Below, in pieces: positions 4,780-49,300 of a stretch of DNA of 64,000 nucleotides. The stretch is taken from assembly GCA_949752745.1 (NCBI GenBank), contig OX457026.1, positions 39,219,394-39,283,393 on the forward strand. The letters are read 5' to 3'. This DNA is from Protula sp. h YS-2021. Taxonomy: Eukaryota > Annelida > Polychaeta > Sabellida > Serpulidae. The position numbers and the translations under genes were made by a program. The notes below the pieces were generated by a model, which was not told the origin of the DNA, made no database searches, and saw nothing but the letters and a program-made list of their open reading frames with translations. The number at the start of each line of letters is the position of its first letter. Within the stretch, counting starts at the first letter, position 1.

Positions 4780-5090
4780 AACATAAATCAAAACATTGCC
4801 TATTTTCAACAAGTCGCCATTCGTCATTTTTGGTCGAACCGAAAAATAACGCGACGTCGTACAATTTCAATATATATATTTTCACTGTATCAACAATCAA
4901 AAGCCAGCGTTGAATAGCGGCTGAGATATCGCGTGCACGAAGTTACACTAAAACAATGCCTATTTTCAAAAAGTCGCCATTTCGTCATTTTTTGGTCGAA
5001 TCGAAAAATAATGCGACGTCGCACAACTTCAATATATATATTTTCACTGTATCAACAATCAAAAGCCAGGGTTGAAAAGCGGCTGAATTG
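4780..5090 (+). repeat. interspersed repeat family 2, two tandem copies
   Basis: Two copies of about 150 bases with CATTGCCTATTTTC, AAGTCGCCAT, GCGACGTCG and TATATATATTTTCACTGTA. Further copies are at 6,085-6,320 and inverted at 6,375-6,515. Confidence 0.7.
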
Positions 5091-13719: not shown

Positions 13720-16700
13720 CTGCAAAATACCAACAGTAACATGAAAAAGAATTCAATCATTTTGGAGTTCAATGTTACTTTTTAGCATTAAATTTTTCTT
13801 TCAATGCTTTCAAATGAAGGTGGTGATGAGGCACGAGTGGTAGTCCTAGGTAAATAGCCCCCACCCCTCCACCCCAACCCCGCGTTTTTGCCCTAAAACA
13901 CTTAAATGGAGGGAGCAGGTAGGGCTGGGTGGGGTTACCGGGTATGCAAAATGGACGCGCCTATTACTGGGGAGGGGGGTTTACTGTTTACTACGAGGGG
14001 CTGATGACGCAGACACTTACCATGAGGAAAGTGTCGAGGCATGAGTGATTGACATGACGCAGACACTTACCATGAGGAAAGTGTCGAGGCATGAGTGATT
14101 GACATGACGCAGACACTTACCATGAGGAAGGTGTCGAGGCATGAGTGGTTGACATGATGCAGACACTTACCATGAGGAAAGTGTCGAGGCATGATTAGTT
14201 GACATGACGAAGACACTTACCATGAGGAAGGTGTCGAGGCATGAGTGACTCAGAATGACGCAGACACTTACCATGAGGAAAGTGTCGAGGCATGAGTTGT
14301 TGACATGACGCAGACACTTACCATGAGGAAAGTGTCGAGGCATGAGTGATTGACATGACGCAGACACTTACCATGAGGAAGGTGTCGAGGCATGAGTGGT
14401 TGACATGATGCAGACACTTACCATGAGGAAAGTGTCGAGGCATGATTAGTTGACATGACGAAGACACTTACCATGAGGAAGGTGTCGAGGCATGAGTGAC
14501 TCAGAATGACGCAGACACTTACCATGAGGAAAGTGTCGAGGCATGAGTGGTTGACATGACGCAGACACTTACCAAGAGGAAAGTGTCGAGGCATGAGTGG
14601 TTGACATGACGCAGACACTTACCATGAGGAAAGTGTCGAGGCATGAGTGGTTGACATGACGCAGACACTTACCAAGAGGAAAGTGTCGAGGCATGAGTGG
14701 TTGACATGATGCAGACACTTACCATGAGGAAAGTGTCGAGGCATGATTGGTTGACATGATGCAGACACTTACCATGAGGAAAGTGTCGAGGCATGAGTGG
14801 TTGACATGATGCAGACACTTACCATGAGGAAAGTGTCGAGGCATGATTGGTTGACATGATGCAGACACTTACCATGAGGAAAGTGTCGAGGCATGAGTGG
14901 TTGACATGATGCAGACACTTACCATGAGGAAAGTGTCGAGGCATGAGTGGTTGACATGATGCAGACACTTACCAAGAGGAAAGTGTCGAGGCATGAGTGG
15001 TTGACATGATGCAGACACTTACCATGAGGAAAGTGTCGAGGCATGATTGGTTGACATGATGCAGACACTTACCATGAGGAAAGTGTCGAGGCATGAGTGG
15101 TTGACATGATGCAGACACTTACCATGAGGAAGGTGTCGAGGCATGAGTGATTGACATGACGCAGACACTTACCATAAGGAAGGTGTCGAGGCATGAGTGG
15201 TTGACAATGACTAGGTACTGTATCAACTGATCCGCACTCAAGTACAGCCTGTGTGCTTCTCTGGCAAAAACAAAGTACACTCATGTCAAGCTACTCAGTG
15301 AGTTGACAAAGTTGACGAACACAGTATAGCAGGTTTGAAAAATGTACCCTGATGACATATAAGTGTACGCTTTTGACAGTTGAATTCACAATTCAAATCA
15401 TTTTGAACTGAGCGGCCAGTGCACAAAAACATCAGTGCAATTGAACATGTCAAACAATTTTATTAGCAAGCCACCGCCATTTTGTTCTTGTAAAAAAAAA
15501 TATTTCCCCCGAGAGATCCCCTTGTTCCAACCCTCCTTCGGTTTAGAAAGTTTCATTTTGACAATTCTGTACTATTTCAGAATTGTAAGACTTTCATCTT
15601 TAATAAATATATATGTAAATGTATATCTGATGTGCCCAGAAATCGGGCTATGCAGTAGCACCTTTATCGTATTTCTGAAAGCGAGAGGTACGAAACCGGA
15701 GTTAGTGATCTTAATCCTCAATTTCTATATGCGTCCAGGTGCATATGTAAACATGTGGCATCTATAAACTGGGCTTATATCAGGCATGTAAAGGGTCCTT
15801 GACAAATATAAAGTTTTCTTTAAAGGTTTTAATTTTGAAAGTAAAGGTTTTTAAAGGTTTTTCCAATGAAAATAAAGTTTTTTTAAGTTAAATTATCAGT
15901 GAACATATGTATTTTAAAAGATATTTTATACAACATATGGAAATCAGTGGGGATGGAGAATAAGAACATCATATAGCGTCAAAACACGTTACTCATCACC
16001 CACCCAACGCTGATAATGTCGGCTGTCCAGAACACATAATGACGTCACACAACGTTGATATATATCGATCAAATACAATATGAACTGTCGTATACACCCA
16101 ATGCATTATCCTACCAAGTTTGAAGTTGATCCAATGTTTCTTTCTGTAGTTACATTGAAGACGCATTTTTCAAGTTTTGACGTCATATGACGTCACGTGT
16201 TTTCCAATACACGTCAAATACAATCCCAACCGGCGGGCCCTCCCAACGCATAAATTTGAGGTTGATCCGACTTGTCACTCAAGAGTTATTCTGTTGACAA
16301 AGCCTAGTATCCAAAACACGTGATGACGTCATATAACGTCACACGTTGCGTAAAATACACAAAATACATTTGGACCCACCCAAAGCATTATACTACCAAG
16401 TCTGAAGCTAATCTGAAGTTTCGTTCTGCAGTTACATTGATGATGCAACTGCCAGGTTTTGACGTTCTGTGACGTTCAAATATACGTCAAATACAATTCC
16501 AACCGGCGGATCAACTCAAGGCATAATCCTACCAAGTTTGAAGCTGATCTGAAGTTTTGTTCGACAGTTATCGTGTTAACAACATAAAGTGTCTGCAACA
16601 GACGCATAAACCACATACACACAGAAAGCACAAACACAAAATGATTCTCCCAACGGGAAAACATAATTCTTCTCTTGATGCTTATGCGAATCCATAAAAA

Positions 16701-19700
16701 TAAACCAGGACAGACAACACTTTACTCTCGTTTTTCTTTGCTTTTTTTTCCTTAAGAAAGGACCTGTTATAAACAGAATTAGTGATGACACTGGTGATTA
16801 GCCTCCATCCGGAGCTTTGGTCCCGGGAGGCGGGGGGGGGGGGGGACTTGGAGTGTTGTACATCTGTCCCTTCGTCCGTTCCTCGCCGGCTGTTACTCCA
16901 CCACCTCCTTCCTTCCCTGAAGATCCGTTTCCTATGATATTTGGTATAGAGATGAGCTATTGTAGTGGGTAGGTGTAAGATATTTTTTAGTTTGACCCTG
17001 ACCTAATTTCAAGGTCACTTCGGTCGCCATTTGGATTTTTAATTTTGGCTTGGGGCTGTGCTCTCTAAGACGGCTTGTTCTATGTGGAGATGCTTTCTAA
17101 ACAATCCATTTCCGACTTTTGATTTCTTTTCTAGATGTTTACTCCTCCGGTATTTTGCTTAGTGTCTTTTTCTTACGTAGAAATAAATATTTACCTGAAT
17201 TTATTGATAAGAGCTTTTTGCAGGCCAGAATACCAAGCTATGGGCATATTCTGCAGCGGCAGCAGCTTGTCGTCTATTTTACTGAGCGGCATCTTTTCCA
17301 CCATTCCCAACAGCTGCTCAAACTCACTAAACGTCGACGGCTGTTGCAAAAAAAAAAACCAAAAAAAAACCGGAGAATACTTTCATTAGGTTTCTAACGC
17401 AATTTGTGTGGAATTCTGCTAAAAGAAGTTTCATTAACACCATACTATACCGTAATCATACTGGTAAAGCACTGCATATTTTTGCTAGAAGGAACTGTAA
17501 ACAGCAAACCCCTGAGTCGTATAAATGAAACATTTCTTCGAGGCATTATTTTCCGGCAAACTTGTAAACAAAAAACGACGTTAAAAAAACAACAAAAAAG
17601 CTTACACTCGTACCAGGGAGAGACAATTCAGACAGTCCACAGGAACAAACGACCAGAACATATGCCTGGGACAGACGACTGTGAAAACGACTGAGACAAT
17701 TGAGGCACACGACTGGAGAGAAGACTAGACCAGACCACTCCGATAAACAAAGAAGACTATGGCAGAGGACTAGGGTAGGACGACTAGGTCATGCGACTCA
17801 TGCAGATGACTAGGCGAGATGCCCAGGACAGACGCCTGGGGGAACAGATGACTAGGACAGACGTTTAGGCCATATGACTGGGGTAGACGCCTGGGAAACA
17901 GGCGACCAGGATAGACGCGTGGGACGGATGTCTAGGACAGGCGATTGGGAGATATGCCTGGGACAAGCGACCAGGAAAGATGCCTGGGACGGACGTACAG
18001 AATGGGTGACTAGGACAGACATTTAGAACAGGCGACTAGGATAGACCCCGGGGACAGAGGTCCAGATTAGGCCACTAAAACAGACGCCTAGAACAGACAT
18101 CCAGTACAGGCGATTAGGACAGACGCCTGAGACAAACACCAAGAATAGATGAATGGGATAGACGTCTAGGATAGGCGACCACTGCAGAATTCTGGGTGAG
18201 GCGACTGAGAGAGACAACTATGGCAGGTTAGAAAACATAGCTTAAAGAGATGATTGGGACAAAAACATGAGATAAGCCCAAGCTTGCTTACTTGTGGTCG
18301 GTCCTCATCGACAGCGGCGGGGTTGGCGGGCACCCAGCCAGAGCGGTGCTTGCGTCGCCCCCCAACGGCGCCCTCCTCGCTGAGGCTGGGCAGCAGCATG
18401 GACTGCCACAACAGATCCCTGCGGCACTCCGCCATCGTGATCTGCACCATCTTAAATATGTCCGCCCTATCGACAGTAATTGCAATTAAAACTGCTGTTT
18501 TAACAGATAATCAATAATAAAAAGAGGGAGAAACGCTGGCATTGTCACAATTACACACACACATACGCCCTCACACTGTATGTATATTCTTGCCCCAATT
18601 GTTTTTTCTCCAAAGGTAGCCAGCCATTCAAATGTCTGTCGTTATTCCTGTCATCAGACGCAGTCGCTGCCGACTGGCCTGAAGGTTCACAACACCAAAT
18701 GAATTCTTATTAAACACAAAGCACTTTTAAAACGCCGTATCCGTAACAAAATGCAGACGATGCATTTTCTATAACAAACGCTATTACTTTGCGCAGTGAC
18801 TGCGTTGAAGGAGCTGTTCATAGACTGGTGTCTGGTGTGTGGGCGGGTAGTCTAGGGTCTCTATGGCGTGGGGCTTGCGGATGAGCTGCCTGAGGGGCGG
18901 GCGGAAGGCGCGGCAGGGAGGTGTGGAAGGTGCGCTGCACTCCGTCACCGACACCTCCTCGTAACCAGACGAGCCCGTCGCCTTTGCTGTAACACAAAAT
19001 ACAAGAAGTGATGAAGAAATTCTAATTACGCTGCACAGTTCTAAAATCTTGAACAGCTATCAATAAATAAATACGTAAAGTGACGTTTTTCCTGAATATA
19101 AAACAGATACTGGATTACAAACTATTTAATATCAACAAAATTCTAAATATTTTAAACTTTTCTTCGTGTCTTCAGCTTTACACCAGCCAGTTGTTGATAT
19201 CGCCGTCAGGCCATTGTGGGCACACAACAACGAGGAGAATGAGTCGAGAAGGAGTGGACCGCGCCTGATCCTGCTCACCCGTCGGGTACATGGCCATCGC
19301 CGACTTCACCGTCCCCAGCTTCTTCTCTAGCTTCTTGTGGAATGGAAACTTGCTGGTCTTGTTTGTCATGATTACCCAGTACTTCAGATGGAGACTTGTT
19401 TTCTCCACGTCAAAATGCTTTGCCCCTGAAAATCATCAATTTTCCAACTCGCTGCCATGCTCAAACAGTCTCTCTTTCACAAAAAAAGAATAGCAATAAC
19501 TTAAATAAATTTACTACAAATAGTAACTATTTGGGCCTACTGCGACTTACCCGTGGGAGAGTCGTGTGTGACAACGAGGCCTACTGTGACTTACCCGTGG
19601 GAGGGTCGTGCGTGACAACGAGGCCTACTGTGACTCACCCGTGGGAGGGTCATCCGTGACAACGAAGCCTACTGTGACTCACCCGTGGGAGGGTCGTCCG

Positions 19701-22700
19701 TGACAACGAAGCCTACTGTGACTCGCCCGTAGGAGGGTCGTCCGTGACAACGAAGCCTACTGTGACTCACCCGTGGGAGGGTCGTGCGTGACAACGAGGC
19801 CTACTGTGACTTACCCGTGGGAGGGTCGTGCGTGACAACGAGATCCACTGTGACTTACCCATGGGAGGGTCGTGCGTGACAACGCGATCCACTGTGACTT
19901 ACCCGTGGGAGGGTCGTGCGTGAAAACGAGGCCTACTGTGACTTACAGCCTACTGTGACTTACCCGTGGGAGGGTCGTGCGTGACAACGAGGCCTACTGT
20001 GACTCACACGTGGGAGGGTCGTGCGTGACAACGAGATCCATTCTGTGACTTACCCGTCGGAGGGTCGTGCGTGACAACGACGCCTACTGTGACTTACCCG
20101 TGGGAGGGTCTTGCGTGACAACGAGGCCTACTGCGACTCACCCGTGGGAGGGTCGTGCGTGACAACGAGATCCATTCTGTGACTTACCCGTGGGAGGGTC
20201 GTGCGTGACAACGAGGCCTACTGCGACTCACCCGTGGGAGAGTCGTGCGTGACAATGAGATCCATTCTGTGACTTACCCGTGGCAGGGTCGTGCGTGACA
20301 ACGAGGCCTACTGTGACTCACCCGTGGGAGGGTCGTGCGTGACAATGAGGTCCATTCTGTGACTTACCCGTGGGAGGGTCGTGCGTGACAACGAGGCCCA
20401 CTGTGACTCAGCCGTGGGAGGGTCGTGCGTGAAAATGAGATCCATTCTGTGACTCACCCGTGGGAGGGTCGTGCGTGACAACGAGGCCTACTGTGACTTA
20501 CCCGTGGGAGGGTCGTGCGTGACAATGAGCCCTACTGTGACTTACCCGTGGGAGGGTCGTGCGTGACAACGAGGCCCACTCTGTACTGCTCTGTATGTGA
20601 GTCGCCGCCCGGCTCCACTTGTACGTCACAGTCGTAATGCGTCACCAAGGCGATCTCCTTCTCCTTTACACACATACAAGCGACACACGCGTTACACACA
20701 CTGTGAGATCAAGGACGACAGGGGGGCATCACATCAGGTCTGCTGCCAACTGTTGCCGTAACAATAGCAACGACTTATCCCTTACGCATTGTCGAACTCC
20801 AAGACTTATTATGTGGTACAGGCAATACTCATAAATTTATTTTAAGAAAACAAATTTGAAAGTAAGGCAGTTATAAACATAACATCACAAAACACAACCC
20901 AAACTGTCACCAGCCACTAGACTAGATAGGCGAGCAAGACAACCTTGACCTCAGCAACGCCCCGGGTTTGACAAGCTCCTTTTGACTGGCTTCTGAGCAC
21001 GAATCACCCTCACAGTGACAGGGAGAGAGCAGTCACGCGCAGACTAGCAGTGACAGTTTAAAACGCCACAGTATACGCACTTACCGTATCCACCTGCAGT
21101 TCATCGTCCGGAAGGGCTGACATTTCCAGCGGCGCCATCCTGTGGTGCCCCTGATGCTTGGTGATGTACTGGAACAGCTGTAGGCCGGCCGTGCTCGTCT
21201 GCTCCACCTTCAGTGCGCCTAGCCAGCAACACAAGCAGCAGTCATCATATCAACTTTTTCACCAAAACTTGATTCCAAAACTTTAAGACACGGTGTAGCA
21301 ACATGGCTTTCACGTCGCGAGAAATTCACGGACGAACTAAGCTACAAATATTTGCTCTCTCTTAAACCTAAATTGTTAAAAAAAAATGTAGTAACTCTTC
21401 TTTGAGAATCAGATTTGACGAACGGATATAACCCTCCCTGTCAGGCTGTCACCCATCGCCTGGTTCACTAAATAGAAGACGCACCTTGAAGGACGAAGTT
21501 AATGGCGAAGTGTGGTATGTGTGTGAAGTGCTTGACGAAGTCGCTGAGAAAGCTGGCCACGTGGTAGGCGGGCGTGAGGGCCCGGCGGCGCGTGCGCTCC
21601 GTGTACGCCTGCAGCACGCGCAGGTGGTAGTCGTGCGTGAACGAGTGCACGTGCGTCAGGTCCTTGAAGCGGTCACACTCGTCCGTGAAGTACACGGCTA
21701 GCTGAAAGTAGCACCAAGCCATGCACACTGCCACTCTGGCATCAAAGCATTATAAACATTCACTTATTTCTATTAATTCACTTATTCTTGATGAACTTAT
21801 TTTAACAGTCTCTTGCTATAAGTTTGGAATTTGATTTAGATGGTTGTTCCAAGAATATAAGCTGAACGGTGATTACTCTGAAAGTAGTGCCGCTGCAAAC
21901 TATAATGGCAGAGTATTACTTTGAGGCCATCACGTCACAGACAGCCATGCAGCAAACCTCACCCTGGGGTTGATGCTTTTGCTGAGGCGCGGAATCGTGG
22001 TGCAGTCGAGGGCATAGACGTGCACACAGAAGTGGGCATCCTGGAAGGCAAGCTCGATGAGCATGATGCCGGCCGCCAGCGTCTTCTGCAAGTACGCCAC
22101 CTTCACCCTCCCCCGCCCCTCCTCCTCTCTCTTCTCAGCATTACTCGATGACCGTTGCAGGTTGAAACTGCCACTAGAACAGAAAGGCGCTAGATTCAAA
22201 CAAAACAATTATGTACCTCGGGCATGTGGATAGTCGTTAAAGCTAAGGCCTGGCAAGGTCGTGCTGTATATCGCCAGCACATGTACCACGTAACTCACCG
22301 CAGGGCCAGGCCCGAGGGCCCCTGATTTTGTCTCAGATCCTCGCCTCTCATGCTCTGGAGGCCCCTGAGAATTTTTCTGATTTTTATCTCTATCAGACCA
22401 GTATTCTAGAGAATTTATTCTAGAGAATAAATCTCGAAATACCCCTGGGAAATTTTGCTTAATTATCTCAATTCAAAAAAATCTCGAAATTCCCTTGAAG
22501 ATTTTGCTGAATTATCTCAATTCAAAACTATCATAACAATAATCACTATATATATTCAACACTCAAATTAAACTACATCTCGATATTCCATCCGGTATCA
22601 TTTATTTTTCACAGTTACAATATATCATCTCATAATTACTTCGATTTTAAACCACGTGACCATTACACAAAAGAAAATCAGAAAAGAATATAAGAAAAGA

Positions 22701-25700
22701 AAGGAGTAAGGAAGGTATTTGCAAAACCTGCAGTATACATGTAATTTACATTAAACGTGGGGTGCATTATGGAGTTGAATTCAATGATTTCCTCAGGCAG
22801 GGACGAAAAATATTGTTGTTTCTCATCCCATCTTTTAAAAATTGGTCCTTGAATCAATTAGACCCGGCCGGGGACGACTGTTTTTTTTTTATTTTGAAGA
22901 CCCGGTCTTGTCAAAGATTTCATATTACTTCAATGTAATTTCCTATAATTTACCCAAGCTTACTTAAATAGAGTTATTTTTCACCTACAAAAAGTTTTTT
23001 CTAATCATTTTCTATTGAACATTATCAAATACCAGTCAATAAGTTTTATGACTTCTCGAGGGAATTCAAGCGATTGCAATTCGACGATAATACGACTTTC
23101 AAGTATTGTGCAATTTGGACTTGTATTGATTGTAGCTACGAATTGGAATACCATGGACGCAAGAAAACGAAATTGCAACTTGAACACCAAACCACTGTCA
23201 AATATAACACCCTCCCCCCCCCCCCCCCCCCGCCTCCTCCAAAACAAAAAGCTTGTGCTTCTAACCTGTAAAAAATCTCTAATATGTATTAGACCAGAGT
23301 TTCCACAAATCAAAAAATCCGGAAAGACGCTGCATAAAACAGTTATTCATTACCCAGATATACTTACATAAAAGTAATATATATACCGGTAAGTAGGCTG
23401 TATAAATAAATTGACTAAGCAGGCAGTGGATTCTTAAAAGTTATAGTGCATTCAGTGTCACCATTAAACCTTGGAAGATAACAAGAAAATGATGTGTAAG
23501 TATCATACTGCATCCCAAATGTAATATGAATTATACTGGAAGTTTTGCGAATACACTACTTCCTTTCTTCTTTTCTGATATTCAGCAGATCCGCCAAATT
23601 TTCCGGGTCTGAAACCAGAGACTTTACAAAGCTGCTGATAATTTCTGCTGTTTTACAAAGTCTCTGATTTAACAGATCCGCAGTAACATAGATACATATA
23701 TATGTGTGTGTGTACAGATATACTGCAGCGGATTTGTCTGTATTTTTTTTTTCAAATCATTTATTAATTTAGTTCGTTTGATGTTTTTATTAATGTAACA
23801 TCCGAGAATGAGCTGTTTTGTAAAGTTGCTGTTTTTTTCAGACCCGCTGTAACATATATATCGATCGCCCCGCAATAACTTTTCGCTCGCGCCCCATGGA
23901 TTCCTCCCTCGGGAGTGGGGAGCAACAGAGATGGCAGTCAGACCGTAGCGTCTATCAACAGCACGTTTACCACACCACTCACCCCATATCATACTACACA
24001 CGCGCGCTCTACAGCACCAGCACGCGCACCGCGCCACTCCCCCGTACCACACGCGCGCTCCATAGCACCAGCATGTGCACCGCCATTCCCCCGTACTATA
24101 CGCGCGCTCCACAGCAACAGCACGCGCACCGCGCTACTCCCCCGTACTGCACGCGCGCTCTACAGCAGCAGCACGTGCACCCCACTACCCCGCACTGTCC
24201 GCGCGCTCCACAGAACCAGCCCTCACCTTCTCCTGGCGGCGGCGGCACTGGGCCGTACAGAGACCTTGGTGAATCCCAGCTCACAGATGTACTCGGAGTA
24301 CTCGCGCAGGAAGTCGTCGCGTAGCTCCACGTGCCACGGCTCCTCCCCCTCCTGCTGCCGCCGCGCTGGCTCTGACTCTATGCCGCTCGAGCGCCGGCTC
24401 TTCACGCTCGATCCAGAGCCGTGACGGGAACGCTGGAACAAGCCGGTGGACGCCACACACAAATACACGCAACTACCAAAGCCATAAACCAACTAAGCAA
24501 CACAAATTGCCTTGCAATACTACCCCGGATTTTAAACGCTACTTATCTATTTACCCGTACTTTATATTCTCTACAACCATTATCTAAAACACTATAGTGA
24601 CAGAAATAAAATCTAATGACCGTCAGAAAAAAACTCACGTTATTAAACATTGTGAAATGTCACTATATCTGCAGAAGATGGTAAAACCATTAGTGGAAGG
24701 CACGCACGAGAGCGCACTGACTGCTCAAAAATGCATAACTGATCTGTTGTATACTTTTTGAGGTACTTACAGATTTAGTTAAGCTCGTCACAGCAGGATG
24801 TACTTTGGTAGCTCTAGTACCTAAAATCTTTTGACGCCATGCCGGGCTGAAGAGCAGTGGTGACCCAACAGAATGCACGAGTCGCGATGACGTCTTCAGC
24901 AAGTCTAGCACGTCACGTGATATAGGATGATGGGCCAATCCGCGCTGCTCCCACGTAAAATAGACGTCTGCCAGTTGTGACAATTTCTCACCCTCTGAAA
25001 GACATTAATACTCTTTCAAGCAAACGGCTGTTTGTTATATCTTGACAGGAGGATGGGCACAGAATTACCGGAATCATTTTTCCTGACTTTTCGTGACTCT
25101 GAGACTTCTTTTCCTGACTTTTAATATCAAATTTTCTGACTTTTCCTCACATTTGCCTTTTCCTTTCCTGATTCTCCGGATATTCCCAACTTATTTCCCT
25201 ATCGCTCATCTTGGGGTTTCCAACTAAAAATTACGAACAGACATTATACGGTATCCAGACAGAAGGGCCTTGGATATAAGGGCCTTTCCCAAACGGCCTT
25301 TTCTGAAAAGCCCTTTCCCAAAACGGCCCTAAATGAAAAGTTCGACAAAAGGGCCTTGAGAATTTCTTTCTAGGATTTTTAGTTTTAATTATTTAATAAA
25401 ATATTCAATAAAACAGGGCATTCAAATGCATTCCTGACATTTTCTGATATTTTTCAAATTTTGAAATAATTCACAGGTCGGGACCTGTGGAAATTAGTTC
25501 CACCAAAACTTATTCCTAGGCCATAATTTTTACTTACTATCACTCTAGTGAATAGAAGAATTGTGGAAAGGGCATTCAAATGCAGTTCTGGAGTTTTCTA
25601 ATATTTTTCAAATTTTGAAATATTTCACAGGTCGTGAAAAATGACTGAAATTTTAAGTTCCTCCAAAATATATTCCTAGGCCGTAATTTTTATTTACTAC

Positions 25701-28320
25701 TTAAGAAATGACTACAGGGATAGTAGGAAAGGCATTCAAATTTTTCAAATTTTGAAATATTTCACAGGTCGGGACCTGTGGAAATTGACTGAAATTTTAA
25801 GTTCCACCAAAATTTATTCCTAGGCTGTAATTTTTATTTACTACTTTAGAAACTTGACTACGTCTCGAGGAGTACTTCTATCCCCCGAGGGGGATATGGT
25901 GTGTGTAAGGTTGTTGCGTGTTGACAAAGCAAAATTTAAAAGTGGAAGGATAGGTAGACGTAGTGTCTAACATTTAAACGAATCAATCCATTAACCAGTA
26001 GGCGCGTGAGACTGTCGTACGTACGCTAATTACAGCGCCGATTTTGAAAAATCCGCCATTTTGTCAAGTCCCATCCGGTAAATTCTTGATCACTGCACCG
26101 CGGAAGGGTCCAGAAAAGCCGTGTACAAAATTTGAAACGAATCTGTCTATTAATGTGGCCTGTAGACACGTGAGACTGCTGTATATACGCTAAGTCCAGT
26201 GCCGATTTTCAAAAGTCTTGATCACTGCACTGCGGAAGGGTCCAGAGAAGCCGTGTACAAAATTTGAAACGAATCCATAAATTAATGTGGCCTGTAGGCG
26301 CGTGAGTCTGAAGCGTGACAGGCGGACAGACAGACTGAAACGTTCAAAACTATATCCCTCCGTTCCACGGGGGATAATGACTATCGGGTTAGTAGGAAAA
26401 GCATTCAAATGCATTTCTCAAATTTTCTGACATTTTTCAAATTTTGAAATATTTCACAGGTCGGGACTTGGGGAAATTGACTAAAATTTTAAGTTCCTCC
26501 ACAATTTATTCATAGGCCGTGGTTTTTACGTACTACCTCAGAAATCACTACATTGATAATAGAAAAGGTATTAAAATCCATTTCTGACATTTTCTGACAT
26601 TTTTCAAATTTTAAAAATTTACACAGTTCGTGACCTGTGGAAACTGAATGAAATTTTAAGTTCCACCAAAATTTTTTCCTAGGCCGTAATTTTTACTTAC
26701 TAGGATTCTACTGACTGCAGGAATTCTAGAAAAGGCATTCAAATGCATTTCTGAAATTTTCTGATATTTTTCAAATTTTGAAATATTTCACAGGTCGGGA
26801 CTTGTGGAAATTGAGTGAAATTTTAAGTTCCGCCAAAATTTATTCCTAGGCCGTAATTTTTACCTTCTACCACTCTAGTGACTCCAAAAATTCTAGAAAA
26901 GACATTCAAGTGCATTTCTCAAATTTTCTGACATTTTTCAAATTTTGAAATATTTCAGAGGTCGGAATTTGTGGAAACTGACTAAAATTTTAAATTCCTC
27001 CACAATTTATTCATAGGCCGTGATTTTCACTTCACACCTCAGAAATCATTACATTGATAATAGAAAAGGTATTAAAATCCATTTTTGACTTTTTCTGACA
27101 TTTTTCAAATTTTAAAAAATTACACAGTTCGTGACCTGTGGAAATTGAATGAAATTTTAAGTTCCACCAAAATTTTTTCCTAGGCCGTGATTTTTACTAT
27201 CTCAGAAATGACCACAGGGATAGTAGATAAGCATGTCCAAGGACATGATCCAGCCGAGTTACCAAACAAGGAAAGAGAGAAAAACTTTGAAACGAATACC
27301 GTTAGGCCAAAGAATAAAGTATGTAAAATGCATTTAGGGATTTTGGAGAGGTTGGGTTTTGACAATTCACATATTTACCGACATTTACACAATTGTACAA
27401 AAAAAAATTAAATTTCACCATTTCGGCATTTTTTGTCATTCACGAAAAAAGCAAAGTCCAGGTGGAGAAGCACCTAAGAAACTTTCGATTAAAATTTTAT
27501 AACTATTTGAAAAAGACTGAGAAAAACGAATGGTTTGACAATTCAGTTATATACTACCATTTATTACAATTTTTGGCCAAACTTCAAAGTTCCGCCATTT
27601 CGGCAGTTTTTGGCGAACCGCGAAAAAAAATAATAGCCTGGTAAGCGAACCCCTGGGGCACATCCCTGCGTAAAATCTAAACGATTGGTGTAAAATTGTA
27701 GGAGTAGCATTTTAAAAATGGGTCAAAACGGGCACAAAAAGTGCCGCCATTTTGTCCGTTTTTCGACAATCGTCAAAAAATTATTATGACTTTAATTATA
27801 TCCTTTGTATCTGTTAAGAATACCGAAAAAAAAGACGCCTGGTGAACTGAAGCCTCAATATAACGACAAATGGACAACTGGGTTTTGATACAGAAAAGGG
27901 TATATTTTTTCATCGTTGGAAACAATTATGGACAATCTATTAAAGTCGACATAATTTCAAGCTGGCAATTATAGCTGATTCTGCGTTGGCTGTAATTTAA
28001 ACAATTTAATTAAAATTTCGAAATCATTTTTCCAGACTTTTCCTGACTTTCTGACAATTTGTCACTATTTTTCTTGACTTTTACTGACTCACAAATATTT
28101 TCCTGACTTTTCGGATTTATTCTTGACCCGCGGCCACACTGGCAACAGTGTATCGACGTCTGATTTTGCTTAATCCTCAAATGATTATTTTGAGGGAGGG
28201 AGGGAGGGAGGGAGGGAGGGAGGGAGGGAGGGAGGGGGGATGGAGAGGGGGAAGAGAGGGGTGAGAGAGACAGAGAGAAAGAGGGAGGGAGGGAGGGAGG
28301 GAGGGAGGGAGGGAGGGAGG

Positions 28321-28398
<78 letters not shown>

Positions 28399-37300: not shown

Positions 37301-40300
37301 AGGAGCGCTGGGGATGGCCTGCATGTTGTATGGCTCGTACACGGCGTCGTGCTCGCTCGCGCCACCCGCCGCTCTGAAGGCTTTGACGCATGTGTCAGGT
37401 GTCACCTCAGCCACCACCCGCCCCAACTCCTCCAGGCTGTAGTGAAGCGAGAAGAGGTTCGTCAGAGCAACGCTGCACTTCTGCACCGCCGCACAACCTG
37501 CAATTGTTTCGCTCACGTCTTGACAATGCATCGTTTTTACTGCACAGAGACCTGTATTACAAAATGGTCCTGAGCAATACTTTCACATATCCCATCAGCT
37601 GCATCAAACTCAGTGGAAATGTACTGACATAAGATTTAATATATAGGTTCAATAAATAATTCAATCGAACATTTTCGTAGAATAGTCATATACACTACGA
37701 TCAGCAGCGCCAACAACAGTTCAACATGTCGTTAAAACGTAAAGCCACAGCGAATAAAGTTTGCGAGCCTTAGCGTTTGAAACCCTGGCTTTGATTTTTC
37801 TAATTATATTCCTATTTCGCAGTCATTATTTTGAGAGGCCAACAAAAATGAGCTGCCTGGTAAAAATTCTTCTGGAAAACAGTCACATAAAATTTTGTAG
37901 GACTAAAAAGTCTCACCAAAAAAAAGTTACAGCCCAGCAGAGAGCAACCAGAGAGGTATTGTTAAGCCAAACGTCTGACATCAGAAAGAAATCTCAGCTT
38001 TGGCAGCAGATTACAGCAGAAATCTCAGCTCTGGCATATTTCAGGATGCGCTATTCCGTCAAACACTGGCTTATTACCAAGAAATATACTTGCCCGCTGA
38101 TGGACCACTGGACAAATACTCAAAAGAACTATTTGAATCCGATCCCATCAAAAAATAATACAACTTCAAAAATCCAACCGTGACATTTAGGGGCGATTTC
38201 ACAGCTTAAGACTAGACCTGATTTGGAGCAAACTCGGTCTAGACCGCGGTTAAGACTGAGTTTTAGACCATAGTGAATTTCACAGCCTCGGTCCAGACCA
38301 CATTCATATGTGATCTTCTATGTCTGTATAAACTGACAAAATCCTATCTAGACTGGGTATGAAACCTGGTTTCAGACCAGGTCTGGACTTAAGTTGTGAA
38401 ATCGGCCCTTAAAGTGTGAATTTTTTTGTGGGAACTCTAACATATGAACGAAGGAAGAACTCACCCAGACTATTGCAGAATTGGAACCAGGTGAAGACAG
38501 AGCGGCTGTAGACACGGTGCAGCATGCCGCGCTCGCCCAGCTCGTACTGGCAGAGCTTCTGACGTAACAGCTCCTCCTCACTCCTCCTCTCCCGCTCCGA
38601 CTCCGCATCGGCACCGCCCATCTACAACGTCACAACGACAACCGTGACGAGTATGAACCCCACTGATTATGTACCGGGGCTTTGATTCTACTCAACATAT
38701 CATTAACCTAAATTTTTTAGATGTATCACTGGCGGTAGCAATTAAAACACATTCATTTTTCAAGGAGGGGGTAGGGGGGATCAGTATTCCGCAAATCGCA
38801 CACAACAATATCGTTATCAGACTTCGATTTTCGTTCAATACTACGTCAGATAGTTTTCACTTTGGACATAAAATTGAACTTCATATTGAATCTGAAGAGC
38901 TCAGTTTTTGGGCCTAAGAAAGCCGCACCTTTGCCGGGTCCTTGGGCGTGGATCCCGCGGAGGTCGAGGGTCGGAAGAAATCGGACACGATGCTCTGGAA
39001 GGAGAAGGCGGACTTAGCCTTGTTCAATGCCGGGTCCTGCATGTCCGACGCCTGTGGCCTCAACGCGCGCTGGGAGCCATCTGAAAGGTCAAGGTTAATG
39101 GGCTGAAAATTCGAACTCTTAATTTTTTCGTTGGAGACCAATAAATGAACTAGATGCTGTCAGAGAGCAGCAATATCCCCCGTGAAACCCTAAATATTAC
39201 CCCTATGCAATATCTAAGCTGGACACCCTTCCTTGAAGTCCACTCCGTTTGCATATATGTCGATTTATGACGATTTTTAAAAGCCTGTCATTTTGTCAAT
39301 TTTGCTTCGATCAAAATGAAACCTTGACGTTGCACATCTTTATACCCTATATGTTGCCTATATGAAATATGAAAGCTGAATTATGCTTCGTTGATATAGA
39401 AGTGGTGTCCACAAAGTCCTATACATGTGCACATATGTCTATTTTCAACGATTTTCAAAAGCCTGTCAATTTGTCAATTTTGCTTCGATCAAACTGAAAC
39501 CTTGACGTTGCAATCTTTATACCCTATATTTTGCCTGTATGAAATATGAAAGCTGAATTATGCTTCGTTGATATAGAAGTGGTGTCCACAAAGTCCTATA
39601 CATGTGCACATATGTCTATTTTCGACGATTTTCAAAAGCCTGTCAATTTGTCACTTTTGCTTCGATCAAACTAAAACCTTGACGTTGCACATCTTTATAC
39701 CCTATATTTTGCCTGTATGAAATATGAAAGCTGATTTATGCTTCGTTGATATAGAAGTGGTGTCCACAAAGTCCTATACATGTGCACATATGTCTATTTT
39801 CGACGATTTTCAAAAGCCTGTCAATTTGTCAATTTTGCTTCGATCAAACTAAAACCTTGACGTTGCACATCTTTATACCCTATATTTTGCCTGTATGAAA
39901 TATGAAAGCTGAATTATGCTTCGTTGATATAGAAGTGGTGTCCACAAAGTCCTATACATGTGCACATATGTCTATTTTCGACGATTTTCAAAAGCCTGTC
40001 AATTTGTCAATTTTGCTTCGATCAAACTGAAACCTTGACGTTGCACATCTTTATACCCTATATTTTGCCTGTATGAAATATGAAAGCTGAATTATGCTTC
40101 GTTGATATAGAAGTGGTGTCCACAAAGTCCTATACATGTGCACATATGTCTATTTTCGACGATTTTCAAAAGCCTGTCAATTTGTCAATTTTGCTTCGAT
40201 CAAACTGAAACCTTGACGTTGCACATCTTTATACCCTATATTTTGCCTGTATGAAATATGAAAGCTGAATTATGCTTCGTTGATATAGAAGTGGTGTCCA

Positions 40301-43300
40301 CAAAGTCCTTAGCTTGAAGAGGGGACGGACGGACGGACAGACGGACGGACGGACGGACGGACGGACGGACGGACGGACGGACGGACAATCTCAAACCTAT
40401 ATCCCTCCGTTTCACGGGGGATAATCATTTTTTTACGGAACGCACACGTAGTACCTGCCATAATGTCCATTCACAAATCCATTGTCTGCCAACTGGGTTT
40501 TGTCTTGTTTCTTTTTCGTTCTAAAAATTTCTCAAAACGATGTTTTTGTATTTTAAAAGCGATAAAGCATTATTTACATGTGTGAAACGTTCCTTCTTAC
40601 ACTTCACTACTTGTCGAGGAGGATGCTGTCGACTCTGTGCTATATATGGTGCAAAAATGACCAGCGCAGAAAGGCCCCAGAATACCTGCATTGTGTGGAG
40701 AGGCGGGGGCCGAATGCAAGGGCGAATCCACGCCGCGTAGGTAGTGCTGGGGGATCTCGCACAGTGGCGCTGTTAGCAGACGATACTCCGTTATGACGTC
40801 ACACAGGGCATGCTGCACTGCCTTGCGCAGTTTCTCTGTCAGTTGCGAAATACCCACATCCCCTCGCTCCCAGATGTTGAACTTCACCAGAGGGCCTAAA
40901 AGCATTCAGCAATTCTACACATGCTGGTCTTTTGGTGCCATCAGAAGACTGTTAAACACAGGTGTCTTCTTTACAAATCGTGACCAGTACCATACTACTT
41001 CTGTAATATTATGACTTTTTCTCATATATTCACCACACTGAAGGTATTATCAATTTAAATACTGTACTGCACAAATCCCTGCTCAAGTTTCTGTTTCTCG
41101 CTGAGATTATTTGATACACATGAAAACCGAGTTTTAAGTGCTGTGACGAAGCCGACATAATTTCTTGAAATAATCAACCTTGTCTTTACTCCCTGCAAAT
41201 CACTGTCATCTTGCCCGCTATGGCACCATTAACTCGGTACAATCCAGTGAGTCCACCAGTCCGTACAGATGCTCGTGGGCGGGCCTGTCGTGCCTCACTT
41301 ACCTTGTGCGCGCATGCACTCGCCGAGCTGGCACGTCTGTGTGTCTACCAGGCCTTCGCACAGATGCTCGTGGGCGGGCTTGTCGTGTGTCACTTACCTT
41401 GTGTGCTCGAGGATTAGCCTAGCCGGCATGTCTGTGTGTCCACCAGGCCTTCGTACAGATGCTCGTGGGCGGGCCTGTCGTGCCTCACTTACCTTGTGCG
41501 GGCATGAACTCGCTAAGCCGGCACGTCTGTGTGTCCACCAGTCCTTCGTACAGATGCTCGTGGGCGGGCCTGTCGTGCCTCACTTACCTTGTGCGGGCAT
41601 GAACTCGCTAAGCCGGCACGTCTATGTGTCCACCAGTCCTTCGTACAAATGCTCGTGGGCGGGCCTGTCGTGCCTCACTTACCTTGTGCGGGCATGAACT
41701 CGCTAAGCCGGCACGTCTGTATGTCCACCAGGCCTTCGCACAGATGCTCGTGGGCGGGCTTGTCGTGCCTCCCCTTGTGTGCTCGTGGACTCGCCCAGTC
41801 GGCATGTCTGTGTGTCCACAAGGCCTTCGTACAGATGCTCGTGGGCGAGCTTGCCATAGCCTCACTTACCTTGTGTGGGCGTGGATTCGTCCAGCCGGCA
41901 TGTCTGTGTGTCCACCAGGCCTTCGTACAGATGCTCAGGATGAGCTTGCCGTAGCCTCACTTACCTTGTGTGGGCGTGGATTCGTCCAGCCGGCACGTCT
42001 GTGTGTCAACCAGGCCTTCGTACAGGTGCTCGTGGGCAGGCTCGCCGCAGCTGGGGGAGGGTTTCGGGCAGCCGAGCAGCCTGAGCGGGCGCCCCCTGCC
42101 GTCCACGAACAGCAAGTGGATGCACGCTAGCCCTGTCCAACAGCACACTATCTTGTTTACTTTACAGTTACATGCCCAATGGCTTACCAACTAAATATTA
42201 CAAAAGCTAGCATTGAGTTTATGGTAATTATTTTCATACGGCGACCGATGCGTAAGTAAAGGTAGACTTGAGGGCAAACAAAAATGACATTCTTCAGTTA
42301 GTGGGATTTAAAACACAGTGTATGAATAAAATCTAAAAGGTTTGAACCCGACTCTGAAATCATTCGTGCACTGGTAAATCATTAAACCATTGAAATTCGC
42401 ATTTTTAGAGATATTTAGTTCTGAGGCAAAGAGTTGTTACAGCTTAACGAGCGCATTGCCCCATGAGGACGAGCACTCTGCCCTGTCAGAGACCAGTACA
42501 ACGCCCTTTTGACGGGCGAGAGCACTGCCCTGTGAGAACGACCACAATGCCCTCTGAGTGACCAGTGTGTGCCCTCTGATGCACGGGAACACTGTTCAGT
42601 GAGGACAAGGACATTGCCCTGTGGCAGACCAGGACAGGGCTCCTTGAAGGGCGAGAACACTATGAGGGACGAGGACAGTGTCCTTTGAGAGGCAAGGACA
42701 CTACCGTATGAGGAGCGAGCACACTACCCTGAGAGAAGCCCGCACACTGCCCTGTGAGGAGCGAGCATACTGCCCTGTGAGGGGCGAGCACACTACCCTA
42801 TGAGGAGCGAGCACACTACCCTGTGAGAAGATCGCATACTGCCCTGTGAGGAGCGAGCACACTACCCTGTTAGGAGCGAGCACACTGCCCTGTGAGAAGT
42901 GAACACACTGCCTTTTGAGGAGCGAGCACACTGCCCTGTCAGGAGCGAGCACCCTACCCTGTGAGGAGCGACCACACTGCCCTGTGAGGAGCGAGTACAC
43001 TGCCCTGTGAGAAGTGAGCACGCTGCCCTTTGAGAAGCGAGTACACTTCCCTGTGAGCAGCGACCACACTGCCCTGTGAGGAGCGAGCACACTGCCCTGT
43101 GGGGAGCGAGCACACTGCCCTGTGAGGAGCGATCACACTGCCCTTTGAGAAGCGAACACACTACCCTGTGAGGCGCGAGCACATTGCCCTGTGAAAAGCG
43201 AGCACACTGCCCTGTGCGAAGCGAGCACACTGCCTTTTGAGAAGCGAGCACACTGCCCTGTGAGGAGCGAGCACACTGCCCTGTGAGGAGCGAGCACACT

Positions 43301-46300
43301 GCCCTGTGAGAAGTGAGCACACTGCCCTGTGCGAAGCGAGCACACTGACTTTTGAGAAGCGAGCACACTGCCCTGTGAGGAGCGAGCACACTGGACTTTA
43401 AGGAGCGAGCACACTGGCCTTCGAGAAGCGAGCACACTGCCCCATGAGGAGCGAGCACACTGCCCTGTGAGCACACACCTTTACCACTGGACTGCTGCGG
43501 ACGGTTGTAGAGAAAGACGTCGCTGTCGGGAATGGGAGGCATGTCGGTCGACGTGAAGTCCCGGAAGCAGCTCTCGCCCGAGCTGAAGTTAGGCTTGAAG
43601 AGGAACTCCAGTAGGTTCTGGCGCAAGTAGTAGCCTAAGGCGTACTGCTGCAGCATCACGCTGGAGGGGATCGTCATATAGACGGTGGCCGAAGGCTGGG
43701 TGCCTGCCCGCTGGATGAACTGGATAACAAAGAACGTCGTGGCGCTTTTCTTACAAATTATATTTGCCCACAAATACATCTAATTAAGAAAGTAATTACG
43801 TTTCTGGTTATAATTACAAATATTTTAACATACGGAAATAGAACCAATTAATGTTTTCACAGCGTATAGTGAATACTCTCATATGACGTATTTGGCATGG
43901 GTTGGCGGTTTTTTTTTTTTTTTTTTTTTTGGCTATGTACGGCGCAAAGAGCCACTTCGGAGAATAATTGGCAGATGATATCACAAATGGCACCACAAAG
44001 TATCTATTCTTTACTTGGGTAATGTGGCGGATAAGGTCACGTGATTACCTGGACGTCTTCCGGCATGAGCTTACACATGCGGTTCCTCGTCAGGATATCT
44101 CTCATCAGATCTAGCACAGCGTCGTCCAGTTTCTTCTGCAATGCCTGCACCAAGTCCTTCGATATTTCCGCACCTACAGACAAAGCACTGCGTTCAACCG
44201 CCAATACATGATCAATTCACTTTTCATTGCAGCAGTAACAAAAATACGTACTACGTAGAAAATCTGCTCAGTTCTTATGTACACTACTGGCTGCCCTTCG
44301 CTGTCATTGGTCTTCATTGGTAATAATGGTAAAGCCGCAGTCCACCAGTCTGACGCTTCAACCACCTACCTGCACTGGTAATGCCGCAGACTTCAAGGCT
44401 GACCTTCCAACCACCTACCTACGCTGGTGATGACGTAGGCCACCAGTCTGACGCTCCAACCACCTACCTGCACTGGCAATGCCGTAGACTTCCAGACTAA
44501 CGGTCCAACCATCTACCTACACTGGTGATGCCGTGGGCCACTAGACTAACGTTCGAACCACCTACCCACACTGGTGATGCCGTAGGCCACTAGGCTGACG
44601 CTCCAACCACCTACCTACACTGGTGGTGCCGTAGGCCACCAGACTGACGCCCCAACCACCTACCTACACTGGTGACGCCATAGGCCGCTAGGCTGACGTT
44701 CCAACCACTTACCCACACTGGTGATGCCGTAGGCCACCAGGCTGACGCTGTCTCTCTGCTTGCCGCCGCGGGTCGACGCCGATATACCTGTCATCCGCGA
44801 GGACATCGACAGACTATCCACGTCCTTATCGTCTGCTGTGCCCCCGTCAAGGTCAAGGTCAAAGGGGCGCGTCCTCTCATCGTCTGCTAGTGGGTGCTTA
44901 GAAATTGATATCATCGAAGCGCTCCTTGCAACTGAAATCAATGCTGTCTTTTTTTTCTTCTTTTTGTAAAGATCTGATTTGCCAATTTTTAGGATGCACT
45001 TAGCTTACAAACTTACATTTGTTCATTTTTGTTAAAACACTACATATTCTAAAATTTGCATAAAACATAAGCAATCGTGAAGCAATGTGTAAAATCCAAG
45101 AAGAATGTCCTGGGGCATTGCAGCCAGCCGAGCCCAACACAAGGAGAGTAAACCACTTTACCATTTTATTGTTGCTTACAAAATCACATATTCTGTCCCG
45201 TCATTTCGGCTGTCCCTCGCGAAAAAAAGTAATTTTCTGGTAGAGGATCATCTACAGATTGTACATGTGTAATATCAAGAAGATCCAATCAAAACTGTAG
45301 GAGGAGGTGCATTTTGAAAAAAAGGTTAACACACACACACTTTTCAAAAGTGATTGCGAAAGACCACCCGACAAAGTCGGCTGGTCTAAAAAGTATACGT
45401 GAAATGTACTCAAGACTCAGGCCAAACGCTACATACACGTCCTGAGGGAGCTGCTGGCCTCCTCGTCCATGGAGCACTGTGGGCCAGTCTCGGACGGTCC
45501 CATGGCTCCCGCATGGCCCTCCAGTAGACGCAGGTAGAAGACATTGCCCGTGCCGTTCTCCTTGTACACAAACATATTGGTGCGGTTGATCACCGAGATG
45601 TTCTGTAGGACCATCTTCAGCGAGCTTATTCCTCTGAAAGCAAAGTAAAGCCAACAACCTGTTCATTTACACACAATGGTTCTTGCATTTTGGTACTAAT
45701 TGTATAACATCAAAGCAATTTTTAACTAAAGCTACAGTAATATGTATTTCTTCAGCATAGTTATTTTGTTCTTTTTTTTTTTTAATTTGATAAAATAAAC
45801 AGAGACGCAAAAGCAAGCAACTAAAATGCCAAGAATGTGGGGAATATTTTCTCGGGGGTCACGACATCTGTGTTTTTGGACTTGATGGGCGGCGACATAC
45901 ATTTTAAGTCATCGGAGAGTGTACTTAACGCTGAGACAAGTCTCACATGGAAATGTCGTGCCGGTGAGACTTGAGCCTCGGGTGGAGAGGAAAGTGCATG
46001 GCCCACACTTCACTGCACGAGAAATAGCCAGCCCGGAAGTGCCGGCTAGCCTCCAAGTAGTTCGTGTTCCCATCGATATCCGACTCGTCAGAATCTACAG
46101 ATACAAGCAGTCGTAGTACAGGAATGACATCGGAACTCATTCACCGCGATTTATGACACACAACATATAAACAAATGACTACACTGCAAATAATTAACCT
46201 GAGAAGTGGGTCCACAAATTGGACCCTGAATTCTGACTTACTTTGATTTCTAATAATAAGTCTACATATGCAGCAAAAATGGCCGACATGAATGACTCAC

Positions 46301-49300
46301 CCTCGTGATAGCTCCAACTCGGATCTAAATGAAGTACAAACGAGACTCTAGATAAGGAGACTAATTGTGACAAAATGTCGATAATACATAATCGACTGTT
46401 TGAATTGAGAAGAAGTGCGCGCTGGCCGCGTCACCTGACTGCATCGATGTCTTGTGCCTGTGTGGCTCCACACTCTGAGTCCATCGGACGTCCTCGTCCG
46501 CTTCGGGCACGAGCAGGTTGTTGCACATGCGCGTCTTGTGTAGGTCCTCCAGCAGCAGCATCTGTGGGGACGAGAAAACCCGGCTCCAACTATGCCACCC
46601 ACCAGTGTCAACTATCTCTCCATTTTCACAAGGCTTGACGTATCTTTTGTTTTAGGCTACGAAACAGCATAAAAGCGTGCGTAAAACACTTAACAAAGCC
46701 GCCGAAGTTTCAGGATTACTTTTAGACACAGAGGCAATTAAATTACATCGCAAATGCCCTACCGCTTTGACCAAGAATAAGCCCGAAAGTCTCGATCAAA
46801 GACAACAGTGGGTCTTCTGCTCACCTGATTGACTTGATGGCAGACTTGCTTGATGTGTTCTATGACTCGCTCAAAGAGTGCCTTGTGTTCCCCGTGAGCT
46901 GCCGGCTCACCCATGTCCCTGTAACACACAGCAAAGGTTCTGGCAGGCTCACCAATCACAAGCGTTGTTCCCGTCATTAAGGTGTCTAACTAACATAGGC
47001 GTAGCCACCGGAGGGGGGAGGGGAGGGGGTCTCAGCCCCCCCCCATTTTTTCAGTGTGGGGGCCATAGTATTCTTCGCCTCCCAACCCCCACGTTAGTCC
47101 CCCCCCCCCCAGTTGTAAGAATGTTGCTACGCCAATGACTAATACAGTGGCCAAAGAAACAACACGAACGGATTGAATCTAGCACGCCTTTATATACCCT
47201 GCTTGACCTTAAAACGAAGGCTTTTTAGCCAGGAGTAACTAAACCTCGTCTGGCGTTATAACCCATGACGTCACACAAAGTCAGGCTGTTCTATTCTTCC
47301 AGTTGCCCTATTCGACCTTACTACACACCTGGCATGAAAGTACACGTGCACCGAGTCGGTGTCGACCTTGAGGACGAGCCAGAAGTCGGGCAGCATTGGC
47401 CTGAGGACACGCGCGTCAGAGAAGGACATCAATGAGTGGCCGTCCTCCGTGTCGCTCGAGTCCCCGTCGTAGCCTGCAAAACACCGACTTGTCATGACAA
47501 ATACACCCATTTCTTTCACAATTTTTCAAGGCTATTGCATTGTTGCTAAATATAGATTTGATCATGCTTGTACATGCTGATGAACTATATTTTAAATGAA
47601 GAAATGTAAGACGCTGGTCTTTTTGCTAAACACAGTCAGAATTTGCCTTACTATAGGAACAGTGATTAAACGTCACAAAATCTGAACTGAACGCTGTGTG
47701 AGAACGCCATGCGGGAGGCATGGTGTGCTGTAAACCAGCTGTGTGCCATGAGAGCCGAAACACTCGCCAATATATATACAACAATGTTTTGGATAGTATC
47801 CAGCTAAGGGAGGAAACTTCGGTATTTTTTTTATGGGGCGGGGGGGGGGGGGGGGCGGGGGTGGGACTGGGTGTATGGGGAATGTACCTCACCCACCTTC
47901 CTCGCCATAGCTGCTGCGGCTGCTGACGTCAAACACGGAGCTTATGGGCGTCATGAGTCCCGATTTGCCCGACTGGTGGCGTGACCTGGATGGCGTGGCT
48001 CGGCCCGAGTGCGACCTTACAACACCATACGGACATCATAAGGTTTAATACGATTAGAAATCATCTTATTTTTCACTTAAAACATTTACGTTTAATTTTG
48101 GTGTTATGTGTTCTTCGAGTAGTTATTTGTGTGTACTCTAAGAAGTCCCACACAGTGATAACTCTGGTGTGCGCCGTTCCATATGTTCTATATGTTCTAT
48201 ATGTCGCACAGAAATTCTGATCGTGCGCCAACTTTCACAATTGGCATGCGCATTTACTCGTGCATGGCCGGTCGCTGCCCCCCCCCAAGGGGAGACATAA
48301 GGCGGCCCGCGGCGTGCTACCTGGGCACGGCCGGGCGATGCCCCCCCCCCCCCCTAAGTAGACACGAGCCTAACGGCAGCAAGCTACCAGCGAGCTGCAT
48401 CCGCCCCCCCGCCCCCACCACAGCCCAGCTCCCCCTTCCCATAGGGGAGACACGAGCCGGTCCGTAGCGTGCTACCTGCGCACGGCCGGGCGCTGCTCCA
48501 CTTCCGCCTTATACTTTTCAAAGCTGGCAGAGCTATGCGCGCGTCTGATGGGCACGTCATGATGGCTGTGGCTACCGGAGTCGCTGACGTCAGCAGGTAA
48601 GACAAGTGGTGCGGGACTGCAACAACCAAACACAGAAGAGCACTTATCGCAGGACATCATAACACACTACTTCATGACATAATCTTAAGATGCCATAAAC
48701 CAAACAAAATCTTGTTTATCTGTGTTTACACATGTTTAATCCCGGCGTTTACGTGAAGGCAGTACCTGGCTTTGGTGGCACTCTCTTCCTTGCGTTGCTC
48801 CATGAGTTTCTCTGCCTTGAGTTTGTCACGTAACTGCTGTGAGTCCAGGTAGTGCGTGCTCGGGCTCTGGTGCTGAAGGAAGTGCACCGACTTGGAAAAC
48901 GCGTCCATCTTGCTCCCAGGCAACAGAATGCCCTGCTCGAAAACCTCATCGCTTCCCTGGCGGAGCATCTCCGATCCCAACGATCGGGTCTCCGAAGACT
49001 TCCGAACCGTATCTGCTCCGGGCGAGCGACTTTCAGACGTTCTCCGCGACATCGCATCTGCAGCCGTCTTTGTTGTGCCTTCACCTGCAGCTGTAGCTCC
49101 CGCGTTCTTCCCGTCCGCCGAAGCCGTACCTCCATCGAGACGACCGCGTTTGGAATCGGCTTCATGACTCTCAGCATGGTCACAGCCTGTCGGGTCCGTG
49201 TGGGCCGTGAGCGGCACGACCTCCCTGACGGGGCTGGGCCGCGTCACAGATATCCTGATGTCGTCTTGCGCCTGGGCCTCGCCCGCGGGTAGTGTCCCTG

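Follow-up and report, generated by a model that had tools for sequence, protein, structure and literature searches.

Why should minisatellites gather at the 5' splice sites of a single gene? This question is raised by a stretch of 64,000 nucleotides (nt) from the serpulid annelid Protula sp. h YS-2021 (contig OX457026.1, here C3, positions 39219394-39283393; hereafter the window, with positions counted from its first letter). An exon model and homology to human SZT2 assign the introns that carry these arrays to SZT2, the gene for a subunit of KICSTOR, which lies on the minus strand. Half of the arrays in this gene span a splice donor, and similar arrays recur at donors elsewhere in the genome.

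Arrays spanning the splice donors of SZT2

With Tandem Repeats Finder (TRF; period 15-130, score of at least 100), we detected 12 arrays within the span of SZT2. Six of them span a splice donor, such that the first copy comprises the true exon tail (15, 37, 39, 39, 42 or 78 nt), the true donor and the first intron bases, whereas the later copies are diverged repeats of this segment. Two further arrays begin 7 and 8 nt from the last base of an exon and have non-exonic units, the remaining four lie away from donors (18010-18171, 22402-22527, 30554-30834 and 33174-33356), and none of the 12 touches an acceptor. With small corrections, these results bear out the original prediction of donor-spanning arrays in six introns, a reading of the sequence alone, and the exon model and TRF yield units of 50, 44, 19, 50, 95 and 49 bp.

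The SZT2 exons and the arrays at their donors all lie on the minus strand, and a slash marks the end of the exon. The exon at 15173-15260 ends in the donor ATG/GTAAGT, and its tail and donor form the seed of an adjoining 50-bp array of 24 copies (14004-15211), which spans the donor at 15173, includes 39 exonic nt and has kept the GT in 24 of 24 copies. Equally, 39 exonic nt are included in a 44-bp array of 23 copies (19534-20584; GT kept in 20 of 23), which spans the donor CGG/GTAAGT at 20546 of an exon (20546-20663) that matches human SZT2. The exon at 31138-31274 (CAG/GTTAGT), likewise matched in human SZT2, contributes only 15 nt to a 19-bp array of 13 copies (30907-31152); here, the GT persists in 8 of 13 copies, some of which outscore the real donor in donor strength. 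An 18-bp array of 15.6 copies (30554-30834) shares this intron and follows the 19-bp array after a gap of about 70 bp. The largest array in copy number, with 43 copies of a 50-bp unit (35180-37342; GT kept in 39 of 43), spans the donor at 37301 with 42 exonic nt; the exon (37301-37487, ending in ..AIPSAP/GTACGT) has a weak donor, and its exact junction is uncertain. A 95-bp array of eight copies (41262-42042; GT kept in 7 of 8) spans the donor AAG/GTAAGT at 41965 with 78 exonic nt, following an exon (41965-42132) whose reading frame is less certain. Finally, a 49-bp array of eight copies (44327-44749; GT kept in 8 of 8) spans the donor TGG/GTAAGT at 44713 with 37 nt of an exon (44713-44886) that again matches human SZT2.

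The original prediction had placed three more arrays close to donors. Two of them are upheld, namely an array of four copies of about 50 bp (23998-24220), starting 7 nt from the last base of the modelled exon at 24227-24472 (AAG/GTGAGG), and a 23-bp array of 35 copies (42663-43471), starting 8 nt from that of the exon at 43479-43719 (AAG/GTGTGT), which matches human SZT2. The third is a GAGG microsatellite rather than a minisatellite (28192-28408), located 38 nt beyond the donor at 28446. Another intronic array, with a 68-bp unit (33174-33356), is rich in CATGGTAAGT donor-like words and has no exon visible nearby; it is possibly the fossil of a lost junction.

To follow the exonic sequence into the introns, each exon was compared with every modelled intron in a screen patterned on a chicken study (PMC12954441), with the best match in ten shuffled sets as the threshold. 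Above this threshold, 101 matches in six exons lay on the donor side, none on the acceptor side and one in a distant intron. The six exons comprise those of five arrays, the 19-bp array going undetected, and the exon at 48476-48616, whose 3' end recurs once, in degenerate form, in the intron that follows. This copy, which scores 31.0 bits compared with 28.3 at most after shuffling, is what had been predicted as a weak array.

The arrays do not share a common sequence. Among ten unit sequences, 4 of 45 pairs reached or exceeded the highest score of 30 shuffles, narrowly in each case (local scores of 18-24), which we read as short shared words that are partly the donor itself. The units thus appear essentially unrelated, supporting the predicted origin by independent expansions rather than from one mobile element.

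Donors and reading frames within the arrays

Pooled over the six donor-spanning arrays, the donor GT has been kept in 106 of 119 copies. On average, conservation in the donor columns is similar to that in the remaining columns (slightly higher in four of the six arrays, lower in two), indicating neither a clear loss of decoy donors nor a clear tendency to keep them. When the exon at 15260-15173 is cut at its first donor, the alignment of the protein to human SZT2 shows no gap at the transition to the following exon (13719). Four arrays contain 54 more donors with a score of at least 8; none of the 54 yields an open, in-frame exon, as each introduces either a frame shift or a stop. In a fifth array, whose donors are weak (threshold 3.5), one of 85 further sites is open and in frame; the J95 array was left out of this scoring, because no reading phase satisfied the test. 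The spliceosome should therefore favour the first site where up to 24 nearly identical ones are available.

Chance, composition and the donor excess

We next compared the positions of the 12 arrays with random placement within SZT2, using 32 donors and 32 acceptors from an earlier version of the exon list (without the exon near 24926-24840), 4000 trials for each model and a distance of up to 10 nt as a donor match. When arrays were placed anywhere in the span, eight or more donor matches arose in 1.7% of the trials. When they were made to spare exons, this was the case in 0 of 4000 trials, with a mode of one match, whereas an absence of acceptor matches was seen in 27% of the trials and is thus unremarkable on its own. 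The P values obtained for SZT2 are optimistic because the window was noticed through its arrays; independent support comes from the genome-wide pattern search described below.

Donor motifs scoring at least 9 are found in 5 of the 12 SZT2 arrays (0.3 expected), in none of the eight arrays in the rest of the window and in 1 of 31 arrays (0.9 expected) in 17 random loci. The latter were drawn by coordinate as eighteen 10-kb stretches (L001-L018), one of which, the contig end L001, was dropped. As only 1 of these 31 random arrays carries the motif, we rejected the idea that the donor motif itself generates arrays. Six arrays in five of the random stretches were also inspected by eye, and no exon was seen. 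The number of arrays per 10 kb is 2.9 in SZT2, compared with 3.5 in the rest of the window and 1.8 in the 17 random loci, while arrays cover 18.7%, 7.8% and 6.0% of the sequence, respectively. In the excluded contig end (C1:1-10000), TTAGGG-like and TCAGGG-like words occur within a tandem repeat whose period is about 2028 bp.

Recurrence elsewhere in the genome

Across the genome (863 Mb in 218 contigs), three occurrences of AGGTAAGT with gaps of 20-50 gave 696 matches, compared with 145 for the reversed pattern; these are overlapping matches rather than arrays, and the donor matches include simple AGGT-type repeats. The counts concern the donor pattern only, whose acceptor counterpart would be three occurrences of TTTNCAGG with the same gaps. 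The matches listed, which extend to C3, comprise 25 arrays, four of them simple, and we read the flanks of 19 of the 21 others. As this sample was drawn by its donor motif, it does not by itself permit a comparison between donors and acceptors.

For 18 of these loci, we scored the evidence that an exon ends at a donor where the array starts, using shuffled flanks for comparison (p values uncorrected); L029 was set aside, because its TRF consensus lacks GGTAAG. Seven of the 18 reached p <=0.05 (L030, L033, L035, L036, L037, L039 and L047). In L030, the best exon score used the second donor, and in L036, the array proper starts 44 nt beyond the donor, yet its unit copies the exon tail. An eighth supported locus, L034, encodes pyruvate carboxylase (E 1.7e-25), with an exon-donor p of 0.065. 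In Pfam scans, L037 showed an AAA domain (PF00004) above the cut-off, whereas L030, L033, L035, L036 and L039 gave nothing above it; L047 was outside these scans. In total, an exon-donor junction is supported in 8 of the 19 arrays. In L042 (p 0.07) and L046 (p 0.2), an exon is possible by eye, and no supported exon was found at the array in L028, L038, L040, L041, L043, L044, L045 and L048. These data confirm that exon-donor arrays are a real, recurrent feature, present in at least eight places beyond SZT2.

The remaining array, L029 (C1 near 8.41 Mb), consists of about 70 copies of a 32-bp unit and abuts an acceptor: on the other strand, base 543 is the first of a KIF9-like exon (E 6e-5; Pfam kinesin below the cut-off), and the array begins at base 548. 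The one-sided pattern foreseen in the original prediction, with no array at an acceptor, thus describes SZT2, but a purely donor-sided rule must be rejected for the genome as a whole. In two other places, donor-like sequences are repeated in a noteworthy manner. L045 contains a 44-bp array (940-1335) whose unit has both GTAAGT and TTTTCAG, resembling a minimal intron in tandem, with no exon evident, and in a 12.5-kb stretch of C2 (92165763-92178259), tandem CCAGGTAAGTCAGCACC-type donors form two clusters, of which the second measures about 3 kb.

The SZT2 gene model and other repeats in the window

The modelled part of SZT2 (13418-54195, minus strand) has 34 exons and is incomplete at its 5' end. 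In comparisons with human SZT2 in the PDB, a single exon matched with E 3.6e-8. Joined exons gave E 1.9e-13 for 54115-53387 (human residues 1605-1756), E 2.5e-80 for 47473-40686 (human residues 1911-2398), E 3.6e-71 for 38621-19279, in a match split into two stretches, and E 4.4e-10 for 17340-13719 (3300-3392 in the numbering of 9v0j_D). The comparison left out the exons at 50115-48476 and 39080-38929, and the modelled part at 18986-18292 showed no match in it. Some junctions are less certain, in particular those at 37301 and 41965. Candidate exons at 55534-54404 were excluded from the model, and a gene finder run on the adjoining locus L020 gave no further convincing SZT2 exon. A search for homologous proteins with a query of 153 residues from SZT2 returned nothing at 1e-3, and a PDB search with an early open frame found no match, whereas a longer peptide containing most of that frame gave the match at 54115-53387. 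A Pfam scan of seven long-open-reading-frame proteins from the window identified no family. On the plus strand, a 140-codon open frame (3463-3885) ends in two 21-bp repeats; the Pfam scan gave no family for it either.

The window also contains four arrays with larger units of 159-178 bp (39250-40386, 1793-2167, 4790-5086 and 51728-52166), two of which adjoin GGAC or GACC microsatellites. Such units are reminiscent of the repeats that bivalve pearl/Helitron-like elements carry in tandem, so these arrays are probably parts of mobile elements.

Discussion

With moderate confidence, we attribute the donor-associated arrays to minisatellite expansions that began in the GC-rich ends of exons, with splicing acting as a filter. 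According to this model, a short segment made up of the exon tail, the 5' splice site and the first intron bases would have been duplicated in tandem and would then have grown as an intronic minisatellite. Arrays would begin in GC-rich sequence, which near introns means the ends of exons; in SZT2, exons have a GC content of 59%, compared with 41% for introns outside the arrays. Those at donors could survive because the original first donor still yields the normal exon, while expansions within exons or across acceptors would be removed by selection. The surviving arrays may then evolve neutrally through slippage and unequal exchange, and the similar conservation of donor and other columns is what neutrality predicts. 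Selection that merely tolerates duplicated donors, one of the processes originally proposed, predicts no excess of arrays at donors over the intron interior. As 8 of the 12 arrays nevertheless lie at donors, something must favour exon ends, with tolerance retained as a filter beside it, and GC content is the cheapest candidate for this factor.

Several observations weigh against this explanation. When GC-rich seeds are required, 18-37% of the tolerated seeds fall on donors. Under this model, 6 of 12 arrays at donors has a P of 0.012-0.26, but the P for 8 of 12 is 0.0003-0.036, and that for no acceptor among six or eight arrays is 0.004-0.083 at donor shares of 0.50-0.66, so that neither of the latter two results is fully accounted for. 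GC seeding with a splicing filter therefore explains much of the donor excess, but perhaps not all of it, and the data are suggestive of a donor-side preference in SZT2. Furthermore, the two arrays starting 7 and 8 nt from an exon do not have exonic units, and below the threshold of the exon-copy screen, in the range of noise, five weak matches on the acceptor side face three on the donor side. In the genome sample, 10 of the 19 arrays have no supported exon, and the array of L029 adjoins an acceptor.

It is conceivable, if unlikely, that a duplication process instead acts specifically on 5' splice sites, driven for instance by transcription-linked breaks, by R-loops or by pausing at sites of U1 binding, with selection playing a secondary role. 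This notion draws on the excess of SZT2 arrays at donors over both the intron interior and acceptors, which GC content does not entirely explain, on the genome-wide frequency of tandem donors and on the position of the exon-side edges of the eight arrays, which range from 78 nt inside the exon to 8 nt beyond its last base. It is difficult to reconcile with the acceptor-abutting array of L029 and with the published cases discussed below, which involve both exon boundaries. Thus, the donor association suspected in the original prediction is real in SZT2 and recurs elsewhere, whereas a process specific to donors is hypothetical, and GC seeding with a splicing filter accounts for part of the pattern. 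The far-reaching version, in which tandem duplication starts at the 5' splice sites themselves, tied to transcription or U1 binding, so that minisatellites would preferentially begin at donors and new introns would have a continual supply of spare ones, strikes us as quite unlikely.

Very unlikely, in turn, is a benefit of the repeated donors as additional U1 sites that secure the splicing of long introns or guard against premature transcript ends. The retention of the GT in most copies and the slightly higher conservation of the donor columns in four of six arrays would fit such a role, but these columns are less conserved in the other two, none of the 54 extra strong donors gives an open in-frame exon, and two of the arrays at donor edges have no strong donors. 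Tandem arrays are difficult to assemble, and the window contains a stretch of 200 N (56301-56500), so that collapsed or stuttered reads come to mind. Yet this stretch lies outside the arrays, the copies within an array differ from each other (mean pairwise identity of 74-94% for non-first copies), and similar arrays exist on C1, C2 and elsewhere on C3, rendering an assembly artefact highly improbable. A coincidence noticed in one repeat-rich gene is hardly credible, even though the window drew attention through its arrays and unrestricted placement gives a P of 0.017: exon tails inside the units go beyond chance placement, and the genome-wide pattern search, in which the pattern recurs, largely refutes this reading. 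Introners create introns with ready splice sites, and it could be imagined that they or other mobile elements carried donors into the SZT2 introns. While such elements likewise provide introns with sequence that bears splice sites, they form dispersed families. The donor-spanning units of SZT2, by contrast, are local copies of the neighbouring exon, and the ten units compared are essentially unrelated between introns. We therefore reject this origin for the donor-spanning arrays and grant it next to no probability.

The architecture as such has been described before. In lancelets, repeats termed mirages span exon-intron boundaries in Adh3, troponin C, the globins BflGb6 and BflGb9, and PGBD5 (PMC3087553, PMC3902484). 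According to the accessible text of these reports, their units differ from locus to locus (10-72 bp in Adh3, 150-160 bp in the globins), and many copies contain splice signals, with splicing said to be undisturbed; mirages occur at both 5' and 3' boundaries, with that of BflGb6 located at an acceptor. The arrays of SZT2 resemble them in spanning the boundary (in 6 of 12 cases) and in the variation of the unit between loci, but differ in that a single gene contains six of them, all at donors, with up to 43 copies. The accessible part of the chicken study (PMC12954441) describes exon stuttering in 236 introns of 115 genes, 190 of these introns being located on dot chromosomes. In these introns, exon edges are copied together with the donor or acceptor, 1-44 times and with 20-187 bp of the exon. 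Most cases are variable in length, and exon stuttering is also mentioned for GC-rich genes of gerbils, based on data not shown by the authors. As in exon stuttering, the edge of an SZT2 exon and its splice site are copied into the adjacent intron and not into distant ones (101 versus 1 match), and the source is a segment of tens of bp at the exon border (15-78 nt). Unlike the stuttering exons, which reside mostly on dot microchromosomes and are copied at donors or acceptors, SZT2 lies on a 106-Mb contig, and its acceptor side is empty; its GC content is that given above (59% in exons, 41% in introns). In human duplicated genes, the accessible text of a further report (PMC2812944) describes internal minisatellite repeats at exon-intron boundaries that alter splicing or make introns; these cases share the position of the repeats, but differ in involving recent paralogs and transcript evidence of altered splicing. 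For the metallothionein of earthworms, the corresponding text (PMC12783039) describes intron minisatellites and none across a boundary. Our search of the open-licence literature found parallels to boundary repeats only in lancelets, birds, gerbils and human duplicated genes.

In the features examined, the arrays of SZT2 match the structure of mirages and exon stuttering, and judged by their sequence they belong to this type. What they add to the published cases is probably a further animal lineage, as well as the donor bias in SZT2, both of which deserve follow-up. Lancelet mirages and avian exon stuttering are thereby tied to a feature of what is probably another animal lineage, suggesting that exon edges are general seeds of minisatellites. 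Moreover, the arrays provide natural tests of two processes, the choice of the first donor by the spliceosome where some twenty almost equivalent ones are present, and the gain of introns by tandem duplication.

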